In this document: piece after piece, positions 4,951 to 62,595 of the stretch
How positions within the stretch are numbered: position 1 is the stretch's first letter
Layout: the number at the start of each line of letters is the position of its first letter
NCBI RefSeq assembly: GCF_019237615.1
Contig: NZ_JAFAGT010000095.1
Coordinates: 1-64,000 of the forward strand
Direction: 5' to 3'
Length of the DNA stretch: 64,000 nt
DNA from: Roseateles sp.
GTDB taxonomy: Bacteria > Pseudomonadota > Gammaproteobacteria > Burkholderiales > Burkholderiaceae_C
Notes under the pieces: generated by a model
What the model was told of the DNA's origin: nothing
The model's database searches: none
The model's input: only the letters and a program-made list of their open reading frames with translations
Position numbers and translations under genes: made by a program

Positions 4951-4964
4951 TTGCACCAGGTCAA
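4951..4964. promoter_or_regulatory. Possible FNR/Anr-type site upstream of the flavin enzyme
   Basis: TTGCACCAGGTCAA fits TTG-N8-CAA. One half-site (TTGAC on the minus strand) is perfect and the other carries one mismatch. Its centre lies about 61 bp before the ATG at 5019. If the site sits at -41.5, as in a class II Fnr promoter, the transcript would start near 4999. It is 150 bp from ttcA, so the flavin gene is the likelier target. The evidence is similarity to the consensus and position only. Confidence 0.4.
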
Positions 4965-5018
4965 GGCGCCGCGCGGAACGCCGGTCCAGCATCGCGCCTT
5001 TGCCTCATTCGCAGCCCC

Positions 5019-6224
5019 ATGACCACTCCCTCGCTTCTCGAACGCATGGCGGCCGCCGGCCTGCGCCCGCTGCAAGTCGCCGGCCGCCAGCTGCTGCCCG
5101 TGGTGCAGGGCGGCATGGGCGTGGGCGTCTCGGCCCATCGCCTGGCCGGCAGCGTCGCCGCCCAGGGGGCCTGGGGCACCATCGCCTCGGTGGACCTGCG
5201 CCGCCACCACCCCGACCTGATGGCTCGCAGCGAAGGCCTGCGCGACGGCGACGCGAACAAGAAGGCCGTCATGGAGCAGGCCAACCAGGAGGCGCTGGCG
5301 CGCGAGATCCGCCAGGCTCGCGGCATCGCCGGCGGCCGCGGGCTGCTGGCCGTCAACGTGATGCGGGCCGTCAGCGACTACGCGGCCTCGGTGCGCACGG
5401 CGTTGCAGGAGGGCGCGGACGCGCTGGTCGTCGGTGCCGGCCTGCCGCTGGACCTGCCCGAACTGGCCCAGGATCATCCGGACACGGCGCTGGTGCCCAT
5501 CCTGAGCGACGCACGCGGCGTGGCGCTGCTGTGGCGCAAGTGGGAGCGACGCCGACGCATCCCGAGCGCCATCGTCATCGAGCACCCGGGCCATGCGGCC
5601 GGCCACCTGGGCGCCGCCCGCGTGGCCGATGTGGGCGACGCACGTTTCGATTTCGAGGCCGTGCTGCCGGCCGTGCGCCGGCATCTGCGCGATGCCGGCG
5701 TGGAGGGTCGCGTGCCGCTGATCGCCGCCGGCGGCGTGCGGACCTGCGAGGACATCCAGCGCCTGCAGGCCCTGGGCGCCGACGCGGCCCAGCTGGGCAC
5801 CGCCTTCGTCGCGACGCGGGAATGCGATGCCCACCCCCACTTCAAGAAGGTGCTGGCCGCGGCGCGCGACGAGGACCTCGTCGAGTTCACCAGCGTGGCC
5901 GGCTTGCCGGCCCGTGCCGTGATGACGCCGTGGCTGAGGAAGTACCTCAAGGCCGAGGAACGCCTGCAGGCCGTGGCCCAGCTCAAGCGGCGCTGCACGA
6001 TGGCCTTCGATTGCCTGAGCCAGTGCGGCCTGCGCGATGGCCTCAAGGGCTGGGGCCAGTTCTGCATCGACCAGCGTCTGGCCGCGGCGCTGCGTGGCGA
6101 GATGGACAAGGGTCTGTTCTTCCGGGGCCGCGGCGGCCTGCCCTTCGGCAGCCAGGTCACCAGCGTGCGCCAGCTGCTGGAACGGCTGATGACGCCCGGC
6201 GTCCCGCTCGGCACGCCGGCCTGA
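5019..6224 (+). CDS. Nitronate-monooxygenase-like NAD(P)H/FMN oxidoreductase with a C-terminal four-cysteine segment
   Basis: 401-residue TIM-barrel flavoprotein of the 2-nitropropane dioxygenase / nitronate monooxygenase group. The N-terminal [17 protein letters not shown] segment, the central [13 protein letters not shown] segment with a candidate active-site His, and the phosphate-binding stretch [12 protein letters not shown] followed by [11 protein letters not shown] all match the family. The substrate cannot be read from sequence; nitronates are only the family default. The C-terminal extension carries cysteines 326, 332, 336 and 349 (C-x5-C-x3-C-x12-C), which are unusual for plain nitronate monooxygenases and could bind metal or an Fe-S cluster. 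The start is the ATG of [10 protein letters not shown]. The gene converges on the NirDL-like gene (15 bp between stops), and an FNR-like site precedes it. Confidence 0.8.
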
Positions 6225-6239
6225 CCTCGGAGCGGCGGC

Positions 6240-7157
6240 TCAGTCCGCAACGCGAAAGAGCAGGGCCTGGTCGCGCGGCTGGACGATCAGCAGCCGGGCG
6301 CTGGCGTCGGGCATGGCCAGGCCGGCATGGGCGACGACCTCGCGCAGTTGGTCCGAGGCCAGTTGCGGCGCGGCGCGCAGCACCAGGCTCAGCTGCCACG
6401 GCCAAGCCGGCGTGCCATGGCCGCTGACGACGTGATCCACGCCGCTGCGCGCCCGCAGCCCGGCCAGGCTCCGGGACGTGGGCCTGGCGCCGCGCCACAG
6501 TGCCAGCAGGCCCGGTTGCGGCACCCGTGAGGGCGGCGGCTTCAAGGCCAGGCCGGCGAGCTGGCCGCCGCGGCGCCAGGCCTGCAGCTTGGCCAGCAGC
6601 CGGGACTCGCTGCAGCCCAGCAGCCTGGAGCAATGGGCGAAGGGCCGGGAGCAGAGCGCCAGGCCTTCCTCGAGATAGCTGGCCATCTCGGGGTCGTCGC
6701 AGGGCAGGGCACGCGCGGACGAGGCCGGCAGCGGCAGGCGGGCCATGGGTGCCGCCGGGAGCCGCCGCAGCTGGCGGGCCAGCGCGGCTTCGTCCAGCGC
6801 CTCGATCTCGGCCCACAGCGGCGGCATGCCTGCCCGGGGCGCGGCGCGCTCGATGCGGAAGCAGCCCGGCAGCGCGGCCAGTGCGGCTGCCAGGTGCGCG
6901 CCGTCGTCGCCCGGCTCGAACGCGAAGCGCCAGCGCTGCCGGCGCAGCCCCTCGCCCCAGCAGGGCTGGATGGCCTGCAGCGCGCCGTGGCGGTGCAGCT
7001 CCTGGCACAGGCTCAGCAACTCGCGCGGCGTGGCGCCGCTGAGCGCCGCCATCTGCCGGAACGGCGATGCGTGCAGCGGGAACGTCTGCTGCCAGCCATG
7101 CAGCAGGGTCTGGCGCAGGCTGGCACAGCAACTGGCGTGGGAGGGCGCGTGGGACAT
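6240..7157 (-). CDS. Tandem siroheme-decarboxylase-like (NirD/NirL- or AhbA/B-like) protein, orphan
   Basis: 305 residues in two halves, each with the layout of an Lrp/AsnC-like siroheme decarboxylase subunit: a winged helix followed by an alpha-beta ligand domain. In half one (residues 14-130) the helix-turn-helix contains TFPLHASPFRQMAALSG; in half two (158-285) it contains LALCSRPFAHCSRLLG. The F/C-x3-PF-x4-L-G pattern is typical of NirD/L/G/H and AhbA/B, which decarboxylate siroheme during heme d1 or alternative heme synthesis. The family's conserved R-x-x-G turn after the helix-turn-helix is not evident in half one, and no other nir or ahb gene lies nearby. It could be a divergent enzyme, a heme-sensing regulator or a fused NirDL. 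An FNR-type box lies 71 bp upstream of the start. Homology is moderately sure; function is not known. Confidence 0.6.
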   Translation of the reverse strand: MSHAPSHASCCASLRQTLLHGWQQTFPLHASPFRQMAALSGATPRELLSLCQELHRHGALQAIQPCWGEGLRRQRWRFAFEPGDDGAHLAAALAALPGCFRIERAAPRAGMPPLWAEIEALDEAALARQLRRLPAAPMARLPLPASSARALPCDDPEMASYLEEGLALCSRPFAHCSRLLGCSESRLLAKLQAWRRGGQLAGLALKPPPSRVPQPGLLALWRGARPTSRSLAGLRARSGVDHVVSGHGTPAWPWQLSLVLRAAPQLASDQLREVVAHAGLAMPDASARLLIVQPRDQALLFRVAD

Positions 7158-7227
7158 GGGCGACCCGAATGCTCGGCGCGGCGGCCGGGGTCGTCCTTAA
7201 TGTGCGTCAACTCCTCGGCGACGCCGT

Positions 7228-7241
7228 TTGAGGCAGGTCAA
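7228..7241. promoter_or_regulatory. FNR/Anr/Dnr-type box upstream of the NirDL-like gene
   Basis: TTGAGGCAGGTCAA has the exact TTGA-N6-TCAA core of Crp/Fnr-family sites. Its centre is about 78 bp before the ATG at 7157. Reading leftward, CATTAA at 7197-7202 is a weak -10-like hexamer, which puts a start near 7190-7193 and the box near -41.5, the class II activator position. It lies between folB's stop and the NirDL-like start, so it can only serve the latter. Confidence 0.55.
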
Positions 7242-7286: not shown

Positions 7287-7691
7287 CTACGGCGCTGAGG
7301 CCGGCTTGATCCCGAACACCTCGACGCCAACGGCGTCACAGTCGGGGTAGACGTCGGGCTTCTCGGTGGAGACGCGCGCCGCGCGCACCTTGGGGTGGGT
7401 CAGCATCAGCGCCAGGATGTCGTCGCAGAGGGTTTCCTGGAGATGGACATGGCTCTTGCCGACGCGCTCGCCGATGGTGCGGCGGATGAAGTCGTAATCG
7501 ACCACCTCGTGCAACTCGTCCTGGCGCGGCGTGGAGGCTTCGAGCGGGATGAAGAGATCCACGTTGATGACGACGCGCTGTTCGCCGCGCTTCTCGAAAT
7601 CATGCACACCGATGTTGATCCAGGCTTCGTAGTTGCGCAGGAACAGGCGGCGGCAGTCCTGCAGGGCCGGGTGAGCGAAGAAGTGGGACAT
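7287..7691 (-). CDS. folB: Dihydroneopterin aldolase
   Basis: 134 residues. Cleaves 7,8-dihydroneopterin to 6-hydroxymethyl-dihydropterin and glycolaldehyde in folate synthesis. The family pattern is visible: an N-terminal strand with IGVHDFEKRGEQRVVINVDL, then DELHEVVDYDFI with the catalytic-region acidic residues, HLQETLCDDIL with the substrate-binding Glu, and a C-terminal strand with KPDVYPDCDAVGVEVF. The Lys-Pro there corresponds to the usual active-site lysine. The start is the ATG of MSHFFAHPAL. It lies 14 bp downstream of the pteridine-reductase-like gene, so the two almost certainly form an operon. Confidence 0.92.
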   Translation of the reverse strand: MSHFFAHPALQDCRRLFLRNYEAWINIGVHDFEKRGEQRVVINVDLFIPLEASTPRQDELHEVVDYDFIRRTIGERVGKSHVHLQETLCDDILALMLTHPKVRAARVSTEKPDVYPDCDAVGVEVFGIKPASAP

Positions 7692-7705: not shown

Positions 7706-8476
7706 TCAATCGGGCTGGAGCAGGTACAGGACGTCGCGCGGCTGCGGGGCCAGGTGCTGGCCGCCATCGACCAGCAGCGTGGTGCCGGTGATGGCTTGCG
7801 CCTGCAACAGGAAGCGCACCGCCTGGGCCACGTCCTGCGCGGTGGAAGAGCGGCCCAGCGGCGTCATGCCGTGGGCGCGGGTGAACTCCTCGTCGCTCAT
7901 GGGCCCCGAGGGCAGGGTGATGCCCGGCGCGACCCCGCATACCCGCACCTGTGGCGCCAGCGCCTGGGCCAGCAGCGTCGTGCTGGATTCGAGGGCGGCC
8001 TTAGACAGCGTGTAGGAGAGGTGGTCGGGATTGGGGTTCCAGAGCTTCTGGTCGAGCAGGTTGACGACGCAGCCCTGGCTGCCCTGCGCGATGCAGGCCT
8101 CGCGCAGGGCGCGTGCCAGCACGATGGCCGGTGCCGTGTTGGCGCGCCAGTGCGCGTCCATGCCGGCGTAGCTGAAGCTGTCCACACTGTCGTGCACGAA
8201 CAGCGAGGCGTTGTTCACGACGGCGTCCACGCGGCCGAAGTGCGCCCGCACGGCGGGCAGCAGGGCGCGGCAGGCCGCCTCGTCCGACAGGTCGGCCATG
8301 AAGGCACGGGCGCGCACGCCCAGGCCCTCGGCCTCGCTCACCAGCGCCTCGGCGTCCTGGGCCGACTGGTGGTAGTGGGCCGCGATGGCATAGCCATGTC
8401 CGGCCAGTTCTAGCGCGATGGCCCGGCCCAGGCGGCGGGCCGAGCCGGTGACCAGAACGACAGGGGCAACTTGCAT
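7706..8476 (-). CDS. Short-chain dehydrogenase, pteridine reductase / FolM-like
   Basis: 256-residue Rossmann-fold reductase. The nucleotide-binding loop is TGSARRLGRAIA; the double Arg is the variant seen in pteridine reductases and FolM and favours NADPH. The catalytic residues are in SYTLSKAALE (Tyr-x3-Lys), with NNAS upstream as the structural Asn motif. A C-terminal VDGGQHL completes the fold. Together with folB, 14 bp downstream on the same strand, this points to dihydromonapterin or dihydrofolate/biopterin reduction (FolM role), which is an inference. Other short-chain dehydrogenase substrates are possible. The start ATG (MQVAPVVLVTG) places the cofactor loop at the usual distance from the N-terminus. 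Confidence 0.8.
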   Translation of the reverse strand: MQVAPVVLVTGSARRLGRAIALELAGHGYAIAAHYHQSAQDAEALVSEAEGLGVRARAFMADLSDEAACRALLPAVRAHFGRVDAVVNNASLFVHDSVDSFSYAGMDAHWRANTAPAIVLARALREACIAQGSQGCVVNLLDQKLWNPNPDHLSYTLSKAALESSTTLLAQALAPQVRVCGVAPGITLPSGPMSDEEFTRAHGMTPLGRSSTAQDVAQAVRFLLQAQAITGTTLLVDGGQHLAPQPRDVLYLLQPD

Positions 8477-8550: not shown

Positions 8551-9015
8551 TTGGACACTAGCCAAACCGCCTCGGCGGACGATATCGCCACCGTGCGCCA
8601 GCTCTATGCAGAGGCGCAACAATGGTCGAGGCACTACGAGCAACTGCTGGTCAGTGCGAACACGCTCATTATCTCAGCGGCCCTGATCTTCGTTGGCCTG
8701 GCCATGAATGAGCACCTGACGGCCGGACAGTCGCGAGGGCTGCTGATCATTCCACTGCTGACGGCCGTCATCGGCGCGGCGCTGACCGTCATGCTGGTGC
8801 GGCTCTGGACCAAGTGCGTCGAGCGCATGATCCGCCTGGAAGGCATCCTGGGCTGCCATGACGAGGCTCGCGGGCAGCGCCTGGATGGGCTTGGCGCGCT
8901 GCTGCCGCCCGAGCTGCGGCGGCTGCCGGTGCGGTGGCCGATCTCGGGACGGTTCTTCCTCGGCCTGCAGGCCGCGCTGGCACTGGCTTACCTGGGCCTG
9001 ATGTGCATCAGGTGA
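8551..9015 (+). CDS. Small membrane protein of unknown function, three predicted membrane segments
   Basis: About 154 residues. After a soluble, helical N-terminus (TVRQLYAEAQQWSRHYEQLL) come two hydrophobic segments (LIISAALIFVGLAM and LLIIPLLTAVIGAALTVMLV), a basic/acidic cytoplasmic-looking stretch and a last segment (FFLGLQAALALAYLGLM). I recognise no family. A TTG start at 8551 was chosen because AGGGGAG at 8536-8542 gives good spacing; a TTG at 8545 or one at 8482 are alternatives, and no ATG is available. The gene is divergent from the folM-like gene. Its last 8 bases overlap the end of msrQ on the opposite strand. Confidence 0.6.
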   Translation: MDTSQTASADDIATVRQLYAEAQQWSRHYEQLLVSANTLIISAALIFVGLAMNEHLTAGQSRGLLIIPLLTAVIGAALTVMLVRLWTKCVERMIRLEGILGCHDEARGQRLDGLGALLPPELRRLPVRWPISGRFFLGLQAALALAYLGLMCIR

Positions 9016-9613
9016 GTCGGCGCAGCATCCGCCAGCCCAGCAGCACGGTCAGCAGGGCGCCGTAGACCGCCGGTTCGGCGAAGTTGTGCTTGCCGGCGCG
9101 CATCCAGATGAAGTGCAGCAGCGCGATGACGGCGATCGCGTAGACGGCCTTGTGCAAGGCCTGCCAGCGCCGGGCACCCAGCGCCTTGACGGCCTTGTTG
9201 AAGCTGGTGGTGGCCAGCGGCAGCATCAGCAGCCAGGCCGAGAAGCCCATCAGGATGAAGGGGCGCTTGGCGATGTCGCGGGCGATGTCGCCGAAGTCCA
9301 GCCCCATGTCCAACCAGCCGTAGGCGAGCAGGTGCAGGCTTGCGTAGCTGAACGTGAACACGCCCAGCATGCGGCGAAAGCGCGCCAGCGCCGCCAGGCC
9401 GCTCAGCTGGCGCAGCGGCGTGACGGTCAGCGTGAGCCACAGTCCGCGCAGCGTCCAGTCGCCCAGGCGGCGTATCAGCGCCTCGGCCGGGTTGGCGCCG
9501 AGCTGGTCGGCGGCGGCGCCATAGACCAGCCAAGCCAGCGGCGCCAGGCACAGCAGGAACAGCACCGGCTTGGCGGCGCGGCTCAGCAGCGCGGCGGACA
9601 GGGCGCCGCGCAT
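9008..9613 (-). CDS. msrQ: Heme-containing membrane subunit of the methionine sulfoxide reductase system
   Basis: 201-residue inner-membrane cytochrome that passes electrons to periplasmic MsrP. It shows about six hydrophobic segments, with family histidines in SYASLHLLAYGW and in ALHKAVYAIAVIALLHFIWM. Length fits MsrQ/YedZ (about 200). The start ATG overlaps the msrP stop by one base (TGATG), which implies translational coupling. The 3' end overlaps the convergent unknown membrane gene by 8 bp. Confidence 0.93.
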   Translation of the reverse strand: MRGALSAALLSRAAKPVLFLLCLAPLAWLVYGAAADQLGANPAEALIRRLGDWTLRGLWLTLTVTPLRQLSGLAALARFRRMLGVFTFSYASLHLLAYGWLDMGLDFGDIARDIAKRPFILMGFSAWLLMLPLATTSFNKAVKALGARRWQALHKAVYAIAVIALLHFIWMRAGKHNFAEPAVYGALLTVLLGWRMLRRLT

Positions 9614-10581
9614 CAGTAGTTGCGTCGCAGGTCCATGCCGGCATAGAGCTGCCCGACCTGGGCCTCGTAGCCGTTGAAGATCACCGTGGGGCGCTTCTTC
9701 GCGAACAGGCCGTCCTCGCCGATGCGGCGCTCGCTGGCCTGGCTCCAGCGCGGATGCGGCACGCCGGGGTTGACGTTGGAATAGAAGCCGTACTCCTGGG
9801 GCGCGGCGTCTTCCCAGCTGCTGCGCGGCTGCTTCTCGACGAAGCGGATCTTGACGATGCTCTTGGCCGACTTGAAGCCGTATTTCCAGGGCAGCACGAC
9901 GCGCACCGGCGCGCCGTTCTGGTTGGGCAGCATCTCGCCATACATGCCGAAAGTCAGCAGCGCCAGCGGGTGCATGGCCTCGTCCATGCGCAGGCCCTCC
10001 ACATAGGGCCAGTCGAGCACGGCCGAGCGCAGGCCAGGCATCTGCGCGCGATCGGCCAGCGTCGTGAACTCCACGAACTTGGCCTTGGGCGTGGGCTCCG
10101 CGCGCCTGATCAGCTCGGACAGCGAATAGCCGACCCAGGGGATGACCATGCTCCAGCCCTCGACGCAGCGCAGGCGGTAGACACGCTCCTCCATGGCGCC
10201 CAGCTTGAGCAGCGTGTCGAGGTCGTAGTTGCCGGGCTTGGCGCATTCGCCTTCGACGGCGACCGTCCAGGGGCGTGGCCTCAGCGTACGGGCGCGCTCG
10301 GCGGGATCGGATTTGTCGGTGCCGAACTCGTAGAAGTTGTTGTACGACGTGGCATCGATGTAGCGGGTGGGTTTGTCCGCCGCGATTGCACCGGCCACCG
10401 TGCTGGGCGTGGCGGCCAGCCTGGGCAGTTTGCCACCGCCGGGCGCGGACTGGGCCAGCAGCGGCGGCGCGACGGCGATGAGGCCGAGGCCGGCCATGAC
10501 CTGGCGGCGGCTCAGATAGACCTGGCGCGGCGTGATCTCGCTGGGCAGGGGCTCGTGGGAAGCAGGGATTCGGATCAGCAT
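9613..10581 (-). CDS. msrP: Periplasmic molybdopterin catalytic subunit of protein-methionine-sulfoxide reductase
   Basis: 322 residues. Repairs oxidised methionines in envelope proteins using molybdenum cofactor, with electrons from MsrQ. A Tat signal is present: the twin-Arg motif [10 protein letters not shown] near residues 24-33, a hydrophobic core and an AQSA cleavage region. The Mo-ligand Cys is in [16 protein letters not shown], a sulfite-oxidase-family hallmark. It is followed directly by msrQ in the usual order. It lies 168 bp downstream of dnaE2 on the same strand; that gap contains no clear terminator, so some read-through from the SOS operon is possible. The start ([11 protein letters not shown]) leaves a typical 20-residue n-region before the twin Arg. 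Confidence 0.95.
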
Positions 10582-62074: not shown

Positions 62075-62595
62075 AGCGCCTGCTGATCCCGCTCTCGGGC
62101 GCCATGCTGCTTGCCGGTTGCGGCGGCGACATCGACGAGCTGCGCCAATGGATGGAGCAGCAGCGCAAGGAGGCCAAGGCCACCGTGCCGCCGCTGCTGC
62201 CGCCCAAGAAGTTCCTGCCGCAGCCCTATGAATCCGGTGCCGGCGTGGACCCGTTCAGTCCGCAAAAGCTCAGTGTCGCCATCAAGCAGGAGGCGGCCCA
62301 GCCCAATTCGCTGCTGACGGCCGAGATCAGCCGCCGCAAGGAGCCGCTGGAGGCCTATCCGCTGGACACCATGTCCATGGTCGGCAGCCTGACGCGTGAC
62401 AGCAAGCGCTACGCGCTGCTGCGGGTGGACAACCTGTTGTATCAGGTCAAGGCCGGGGACTATCTCGGCCAGAACTTCGGCCGCATCACCAAGATCAGCG
62501 AGACCGAGATCACGTTGCGAGAAGTCGTCCAGGACGCTGCGGGCGAGTGGATCGAGCGCACCAGTACCCTCCAGCTACAGGAGAAGGGACGATGA
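62071..62595 (+). CDS. pilP: Type IV pilus lipoprotein PilP
   Basis: 174 residues. Lipoprotein signal with LAGC (Cys at residue 17), Pro-rich linker, then the PilP beta domain (SMVGSLTRDSKRYALLRVDN, VKAGDYLGQNFGRI). It links PilNO to the secretin PilQ. Overlaps pilO by 4 bp. Confidence 0.95.
   Translation: MKRLLIPLSGAMLLAGCGGDIDELRQWMEQQRKEAKATVPPLLPPKKFLPQPYESGAGVDPFSPQKLSVAIKQEAAQPNSLLTAEISRRKEPLEAYPLDTMSMVGSLTRDSKRYALLRVDNLLYQVKAGDYLGQNFGRITKISETEITLREVVQDAAGEWIERTSTLQLQEKGR

Follow-up and report, generated by a model that had tools for sequence, protein, structure and literature searches.

Why do a flavin enzyme gene and a relative of the nirD-nirL genes point at each other in a bacterium of the genus Roseateles, each behind a box of the FNR type, and what could the two proteins be doing there? 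The pair lies in a stretch of 64,000 nucleotides of Roseateles sp. (assembly GCF_019237615.1, contig NZ_JAFAGT010000095.1, positions 1 to 64,000, here called the window), and the original prediction described it as two convergent genes, 5019-6224 and 6240-7157, with 15 bp between their stops, which agreed with our re-reading of the coordinates. Drawing on observed gene families, conserved residues, promoter conservation and presence or absence within the genus, we consider it probable that the pair is part of a low-oxygen gene set, in which a UfaA/FabX-type enzyme replaces FabA and the NirDL-like protein, a catalytically dead offshoot of the NirD-NirL siroheme decarboxylase, may have a regulatory or sensory task. 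The new element is a NirDL relative without the conserved polar residues under the same kind of promoter as the flavin gene, and the flavin half looks like a further member of a known enzyme type under a well-conserved promoter. The features concerned are the following.

4951-4964, plus strand: FNR-type box TTGCACCAGGTCAA of the ufaA-like promoter, with 7 of 8 box letters
4987-4992, plus strand: -10-like hexamer CAGCAT of the ufaA-like promoter, 22 nt past the box
5019-6224, plus strand: gene for the UfaA/FabX-like flavin mononucleotide (FMN) enzyme of 401 amino acids, family name nitronate monooxygenase (PF03060, 106.2 bits)
5994-6065, plus strand: codons 326-349 with Cys326, Cys332, Cys336 and Cys349, predicted [4Fe-4S] ligands from the FabX alignment
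6240-7157, minus strand: gene for the NirDL-like protein of 305 amino acids, with two helix-turn-helix (HTH) halves and the canonical polar residues lost (PF22451, 48.6 bits)
7169-7174, minus strand: -10-like hexamer GAGCAT of the NirDL-like promoter, 22 nt past the proximal box
7197-7210, minus strand: proximal FNR-type box TTGACGCACATTAA of the NirDL-like promoter, conserved in the genus and missed earlier
7228-7241, minus strand: distal FNR-type box TTGACCTGCCTCAA (TTGAGGCAGGTCAA on the forward strand), with 8 of 8 letters, 31 bp upstream of the proximal box

Both boxes of the original prediction, at 4951-4964 and 7228-7241, were found in their places, but the one assigned to the NirDL-like gene is its distal box, and the conserved proximal box is that at 7197-7210. 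Judged from the window sequence alone, such boxes are weak evidence. Counting exact palindromes proved uninformative and was given up, as the genome (4.80 Mb, 99.1% complete, 108 contigs) holds 25 exact TTGA-N6-TCAA sites against 30 for a reversed control pattern; the window has 11 sites with at most one mismatch, where 100 shuffles averaged 4.9 and a single one also reached 11. What lifts the boxes above chance is their conservation in relatives. In a sample of 20 genomes of the genus, this one included, every flavin gene copy (21 of 21) has, at -68 to -88, a box that matches in 7 or all 8 letters, followed exactly 22 nt later by a.AG..T hexamer; in every NirDL-like copy (14 of 14) such a box stands at -49 to -53, again with the hexamer at 22 nt. 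Nine of these 14 also have a distal box with 7 or 8 matching letters; it precedes the proximal box by 31 bp in seven copies and by 32 bp in two. Mononucleotide shuffles gave box plus hexamer in 0 of 9975 and 0 of 9940 cases and the box alone in about 0.5%, in a test that is not blind, since the.AG..T pattern and the 22-nt spacing had been read off the same promoters beforehand. The box alone also occurs at -110 to -46 in 16, including copies of norB and nrdD, of the 216 further genes called at these loci; these 216 are not limited to operon heads, and their starts come from our own gene caller. Control sites of the low-oxygen or nitric oxide (NO) type, proposed earlier for both genes, are supported by these comparisons. 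In a class II FNR promoter the box is centred near -41.5, and both genes appear to follow this geometry of box, 22 nt and -10 element, so that Fnr and/or a Dnr-like protein should activate the pair. In the NirDL-like gene the hexamer is separated from the ATG by 11 nt (window 7158-7174), and by 7-11 nt among the genus copies; a transcription start about 7 nt past the hexamer would leave a leader of 0-4 nt, so short that the message would be almost leaderless and could not accommodate a Shine-Dalgarno site. A further one-mismatch site of the FNR type, TTGTATCAGGTCAA, lies at window 62437-62450.

Candidates for the acting regulator are encoded in the same genome, namely Fnr (234.4 bits, cut-off 228) and a Dnr-like protein of 230 amino acids that shares 41-58% identity with 12 regulators from the clusters of relatives, and we infer that one or both of them would act on the pair. 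Elsewhere in this genome, exact boxes precede ccoN and the Dnr-like gene and also occur between fnr and hemN. The box at the Dnr-like gene is TTGATCCGTGTCAA; the published DNR motif is CTTGATnnnnATCAAG (PMC1274295). The Dnr-like gene itself converges with a frame of 171 amino acids that resembles a hemerythrin by eye (L133:7120-8354).

The distribution of the two genes is unequal. The flavin gene is present in 17 of the 20 genus genomes, and the NirDL-like gene in 10, with no match in the other 10; its listing has 15 rows, two contig-end pieces of G458 (246 bp overlap, 97.6% identity) being counted as one. The co-occurrence that had been anticipated holds in one direction: all 10 NirDL-like carriers also have the flavin gene, and the two genes lie within about 2 kb of each other in 11 of the 14 NirDL-like copies and 7 of the 10 carrier genomes, in two cluster arrangements. 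Every one of the 14 copies is convergent, seven with the ufaA-like gene and seven, that is half, with the gene for a Crp/Fnr (Dnr-like) regulator. One cluster type in relatives contains moaA, the ufaA-like gene, NnrS and the Crp/Fnr gene, with anaerobic ribonucleotide reductase genes nearby, and the other contains NnrS, an Rrf2 regulator, a DUF59 protein and NO reductase. Moreover, the flanking genes ttcA and folB were recognised by profile as predicted (TtcA NF007972, 481.7 bits; FolB, 80 bits). The notion of a small inserted unit fared worse, and a recent insertion was rejected because of synteny with relatives. G448, G458 and G452 share the surroundings of the pair with the window, ttcA at one end and the gene clusters of window 9008-10581 at the other, which suggests an old site; several relatives hold the pair inside a larger cluster (NnrS, Rrf2 regulator, NorB or Crp/Fnr gene). 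Rather than a fresh insertion, the pair seems to be a pared-down remnant of this larger anaerobic/NO cluster, and presumably NnrS, the Rrf2 gene and NorB were lost at the site in the lineage of the window.

On a wider scale, the NirDL-like protein was sought in 250 genomes of the order at E 1e-5, where only this genome matched, and in 200 of the family at E 0.001, where 30 did, mostly by weak and partial matches. From these 30, 12 regions were taken, and clustering assigned four copies to the NirDL-like family, two in G393 and one each in G269 and G308; two further relatives from a contig scan (L061 and L062) were not counted beside G444 and G454. NirDL-like genes outside the genus follow same-direction genes in L066:9996-10964 and L063:9979-10938; in G269 the gene comes after a NirS-like frame, recognised from clustering only, plus a small frame, and in G393 after a moaA-like gene. 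The ufaA-like homologues of Variovorax and Caballeronia adjoin nar genes, and that of the Cupriavidus necator plasmid pHG1 lies in its denitrification region near nosZ, Crp/Fnr, hemerythrin and NnrS genes, whereas the NirDL-like protein has no match in the plasmid collection at E 1e-5.

Several facts weigh against the pair as a jointly controlled piece of a low-oxygen response. The genus copies are related and some are near-identical, so that 21 and 14 overstate their independence, and box conservation upstream of orthologues, uniform within the genus, is less so outside it. Only one of the four NirDL-like copies from outside (the second of G393) has box plus hexamer; that of G308 has an 8/8 box with a different hexamer, and the copy of G269 and the first of G393, both of which follow same-direction genes, have neither box nor hexamer. 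None of the three named ufaA-like genes outside the genus has the hexamer at 22 nt; that of pHG1 has 7/8 boxes at -87 and -178, that of Variovorax an 8/8 box at -150, and that of Caballeronia no box above 6/8. For the gonococcal gene NGO1024, reported as upregulated without oxygen, PMC3032703 has a table entry with 9.6 and 7.9 (unlabelled figures) that lists MtrR, not FNR, as regulator, and the gene goes unmentioned in PMC1802743, which treats the FNR regulon. Searches of the present genome found no match to NnrS (E 1e-10), qNOR (1e-20), cytochrome d1 (1e-10), NarG (1e-30) or NirK (1e-20), which leaves an NO-specific role without an obvious source of NO. In addition, a structure prediction from three sequences reached a mean pLDDT (predicted local distance difference test) of 49.3 and gave no usable model. 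Finally, the genes are unlinked in three of the 10 carriers (G444, G445 and G449), and 7 of the 17 genomes with the flavin gene lack a NirDL-like gene. These seven genomes, together with the seven NirDL-like copies that converge on a Crp/Fnr gene instead, favour the explanation that the two genes share only a regulon and a neighbourhood and have no joint function, which we hold to be somewhat better than an even bet despite the close linkage in 11 of 14 copies and two arrangements. This explanation is compatible with the pair belonging to a low-oxygen gene set.

The more unusual member of the pair is the NirDL-like protein. It matches the NirDL-like HTH family PF22451 in two stretches with 48.6 bits against a cut-off of 27, and its family profile matches the siroheme decarboxylases 4ch7 (E 1.5e-9) and 4czd; a match to LrpA (1i1g) is weak, E 0.075, with only HTH-like segments seen. 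The fused two halves with two HTH segments are those of NirDL and of the siroheme decarboxylases AhbAB (4ch7/4czc, 4czd/4un1), but the NCBIfam equivalog cut-offs are missed (AhbB 31.2 against 125 bits, AhbA 26.5 against 140 bits), whereas the canonical NirDL of G393 scores 213.7 and 149.6 bits with the same models. The canonical type was seen at eight loci (L065, L068-L074), and five canonical proteins with the full fused frame, from the same bacterial family, were aligned with seven of the 16 rows of the NirDL-like family. Of 126 columns that do not vary among the canonical proteins, 23 are retained in all seven rows. These include none of the invariant histidines (0/4), arginines (0/14), lysines (0/1), tyrosines (0/5) and asparagines (0/6), while tryptophan (3/4) and proline (5/7) are mostly kept, glycine (3/13), aspartate (1/7) and glutamate (1/4) less. 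Three of the four invariant histidines are common to canonical NirDL and the solved 4ch7, and particular NirDL histidines are presumably catalytic. The family conserves cysteines instead: of its 16 rows, all have Cys11 and Cys51, 15 have Cys99 and 14 have Cys10. On these residues, the NirDL-like protein is probably a catalytically dead NirD-NirL offshoot which does something new.

Nevertheless the gene is apparently kept by selection, with a ratio of nonsynonymous to synonymous substitution (dN/dS) of about 0.18-0.46 in five pairs. That it is a decaying passenger without function is unlikely: the conserved residues are lost, half of the genus genomes have no match, and in the comparison with G454 the gene has a dN/dS (0.129/0.28) roughly double the value for the ufaA-like gene (0.063/0.29), yet dN is below dS in all five pairs, new cysteines are conserved and the promoter is retained in 14 of 14 copies. 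A shade less likely still is that the protein remains an enzyme, a decarboxylase of siroheme or another tetrapyrrole with a rebuilt active site that serves heme supply at low oxygen; the profile match to 4ch7 and 4czd and the box at hemN of the same genome would fit, but the histidines and arginines of all five canonical NirDLs are gone and the NCBIfam scores stay far below those of the G393 protein. Furthermore, cytochrome d1 (PF02239) was found in three of the 20 genus genomes, only one of which (G456) has the NirDL-like gene, and no cytochrome d1 was found in the other nine of the 10 carriers, this genome included. A service in heme d1 synthesis is therefore unlikely and was rejected, and the heme-precursor-like role once proposed, taken as that of an active siroheme decarboxylase, is not supported, given the lost residues and the nine carriers in which cytochrome d1 was not found.

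As to what the dead NirD-NirL offshoot does instead, a regulator or sensor is the leading candidate, with somewhat less than an even chance. More tentatively, the family may be a former siroheme decarboxylase turned into a tetrapyrrole-, NO- or thiol-sensing partner of Dnr/Fnr, with the old cavity and the new Cys10/11, Cys51 and Cys99; heme, for example, could be handed to, or withheld from, the Dnr-like regulator on whose gene half of the genus copies converge. Since the gene is kept in a genome in which none of the denitrification genes searched for was found, such a partner would act in general anaerobic adaptation. The siroheme decarboxylase is itself related to AsnC regulators (PMC4835899), and a pseudoenzyme family derived from it could show an enzyme reverting to regulation.

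The flavin gene had been called an oxidoreductase, and this can be narrowed to a UfaA/FabX-like protein, which looks like an unsaturated-fat enzyme of known kind. Its best solved relatives are 9k7h, 7e1q, 9jsy and 9lt5 (E 1.9e-52 to 2.4e-52), whereas chains named nitronate monooxygenase are far weaker (6e2a, E 6.3e-9; 2gjl, E 6.8e-9 over 59 residues). 7E1Q is FabX of Helicobacter pylori (also 7E1R and 7E1S), an FMN enzyme of the nitronate monooxygenase type with a catalytic histidine and four [4Fe-4S] cysteines (PMC8626469). Cys326, Cys332, Cys336 and Cys349 align with FabX C300, C304, C308 and C320, and His196 with H182, though the cysteines are spaced 6, 4 and 13 in the window protein and 4, 4 and 12 in FabX; all five residues are retained in the 21 genus copies, and the four cysteines also in the homologues of Cupriavidus, Variovorax and Caballeronia. 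Another difference is that the H. pylori enzyme uses O2, while the window gene stands under control of the low-oxygen type. That the protein is instead a genuine nitronate monooxygenase for the detoxification of nitro compounds or reactive nitrogen species, as the Pfam name NMO and the nitrogen-oxide-handling neighbours in relatives would suggest, is about as improbable as the surviving decarboxylase: the chains so named reach no better than E 6e-9 where FabX has 1.9e-52, the four cluster cysteines are present and FabA was not found. Thus the family name misleads for this gene.

The homologue in Neisseria gonorrhoeae is 50.3% identical over 98% of the query and is presumably UfaA (NGO1024), and that of C. 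necator pHG1 is 56.1% identical. UfaA was reportedly described by Isabella and Clark in 2011 for anaerobes without FabA, to go by their title. A Ralstonia gene was noted as 55% identical to UfaA (PMC4549310). The window gene differs from the gonococcal one in its control, with an FNR-type box where MtrR is listed there, and in its partner, for no pairing of UfaA with a NirDL-like gene turned up in the literature searched; among open-licence papers, none was recognised that describes this gene pair or a dead NirDL family. FabA had no match in this genome and was not over the cut-off in 19 of the 20 genus genomes; the one with FabA over it (238 bits), G460, is 83% complete and has no UfaA hit. 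Four others have weak partial FabA matches of about 21 bits, and both a UfaA hit and FabA over the cut-off are missing from G450 and G453. A second UfaA type, 66-69% identical to that of the window, lies near a tryptophan 2,3-dioxygenase gene in L120, L122 and L124, where the box (e.g. ATGACCTGGGTCAA) differs and the 22-nt spacing is the same.

Taking the two genes together as members of a low-oxygen set, we assume that a fall in oxygen or the appearance of NO would lead Fnr and/or a Dnr-like Crp/Fnr protein to switch on both. The flavin gene would then supply a UfaA/FabX-type enzyme with FMN and a [4Fe-4S] cluster, whose activity and electron acceptor we infer from its relatives, and which would add a double bond to medium-chain acyl carrier protein substrates and so stand in for FabA, not found in this genome; the NirDL-like protein might take a regulatory or sensory part in that response. 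A UfaA/FabX-like gene under a conserved promoter of the low-oxygen type, in a genus mostly without detected FabA, bears on membrane fluidity under anoxia. Even if both genes prove ordinary, the pair is still a useful marker for the anaerobic gene set of this lineage.

Around the pair, relatives have a flavin adenine dinucleotide (FAD) oxidoreductase fused to FolB beside the NirDL-like gene (415 amino acids in L110, L110:4328-5575, and genes of the same cluster), and the counterpart in the window is FolB alone plus a frame resembling a short-chain dehydrogenase/reductase (7287-7691 and 7706-8476). At the left end of the window, 57-1187, an open frame resembles by eye a transposase of the IS4 type.

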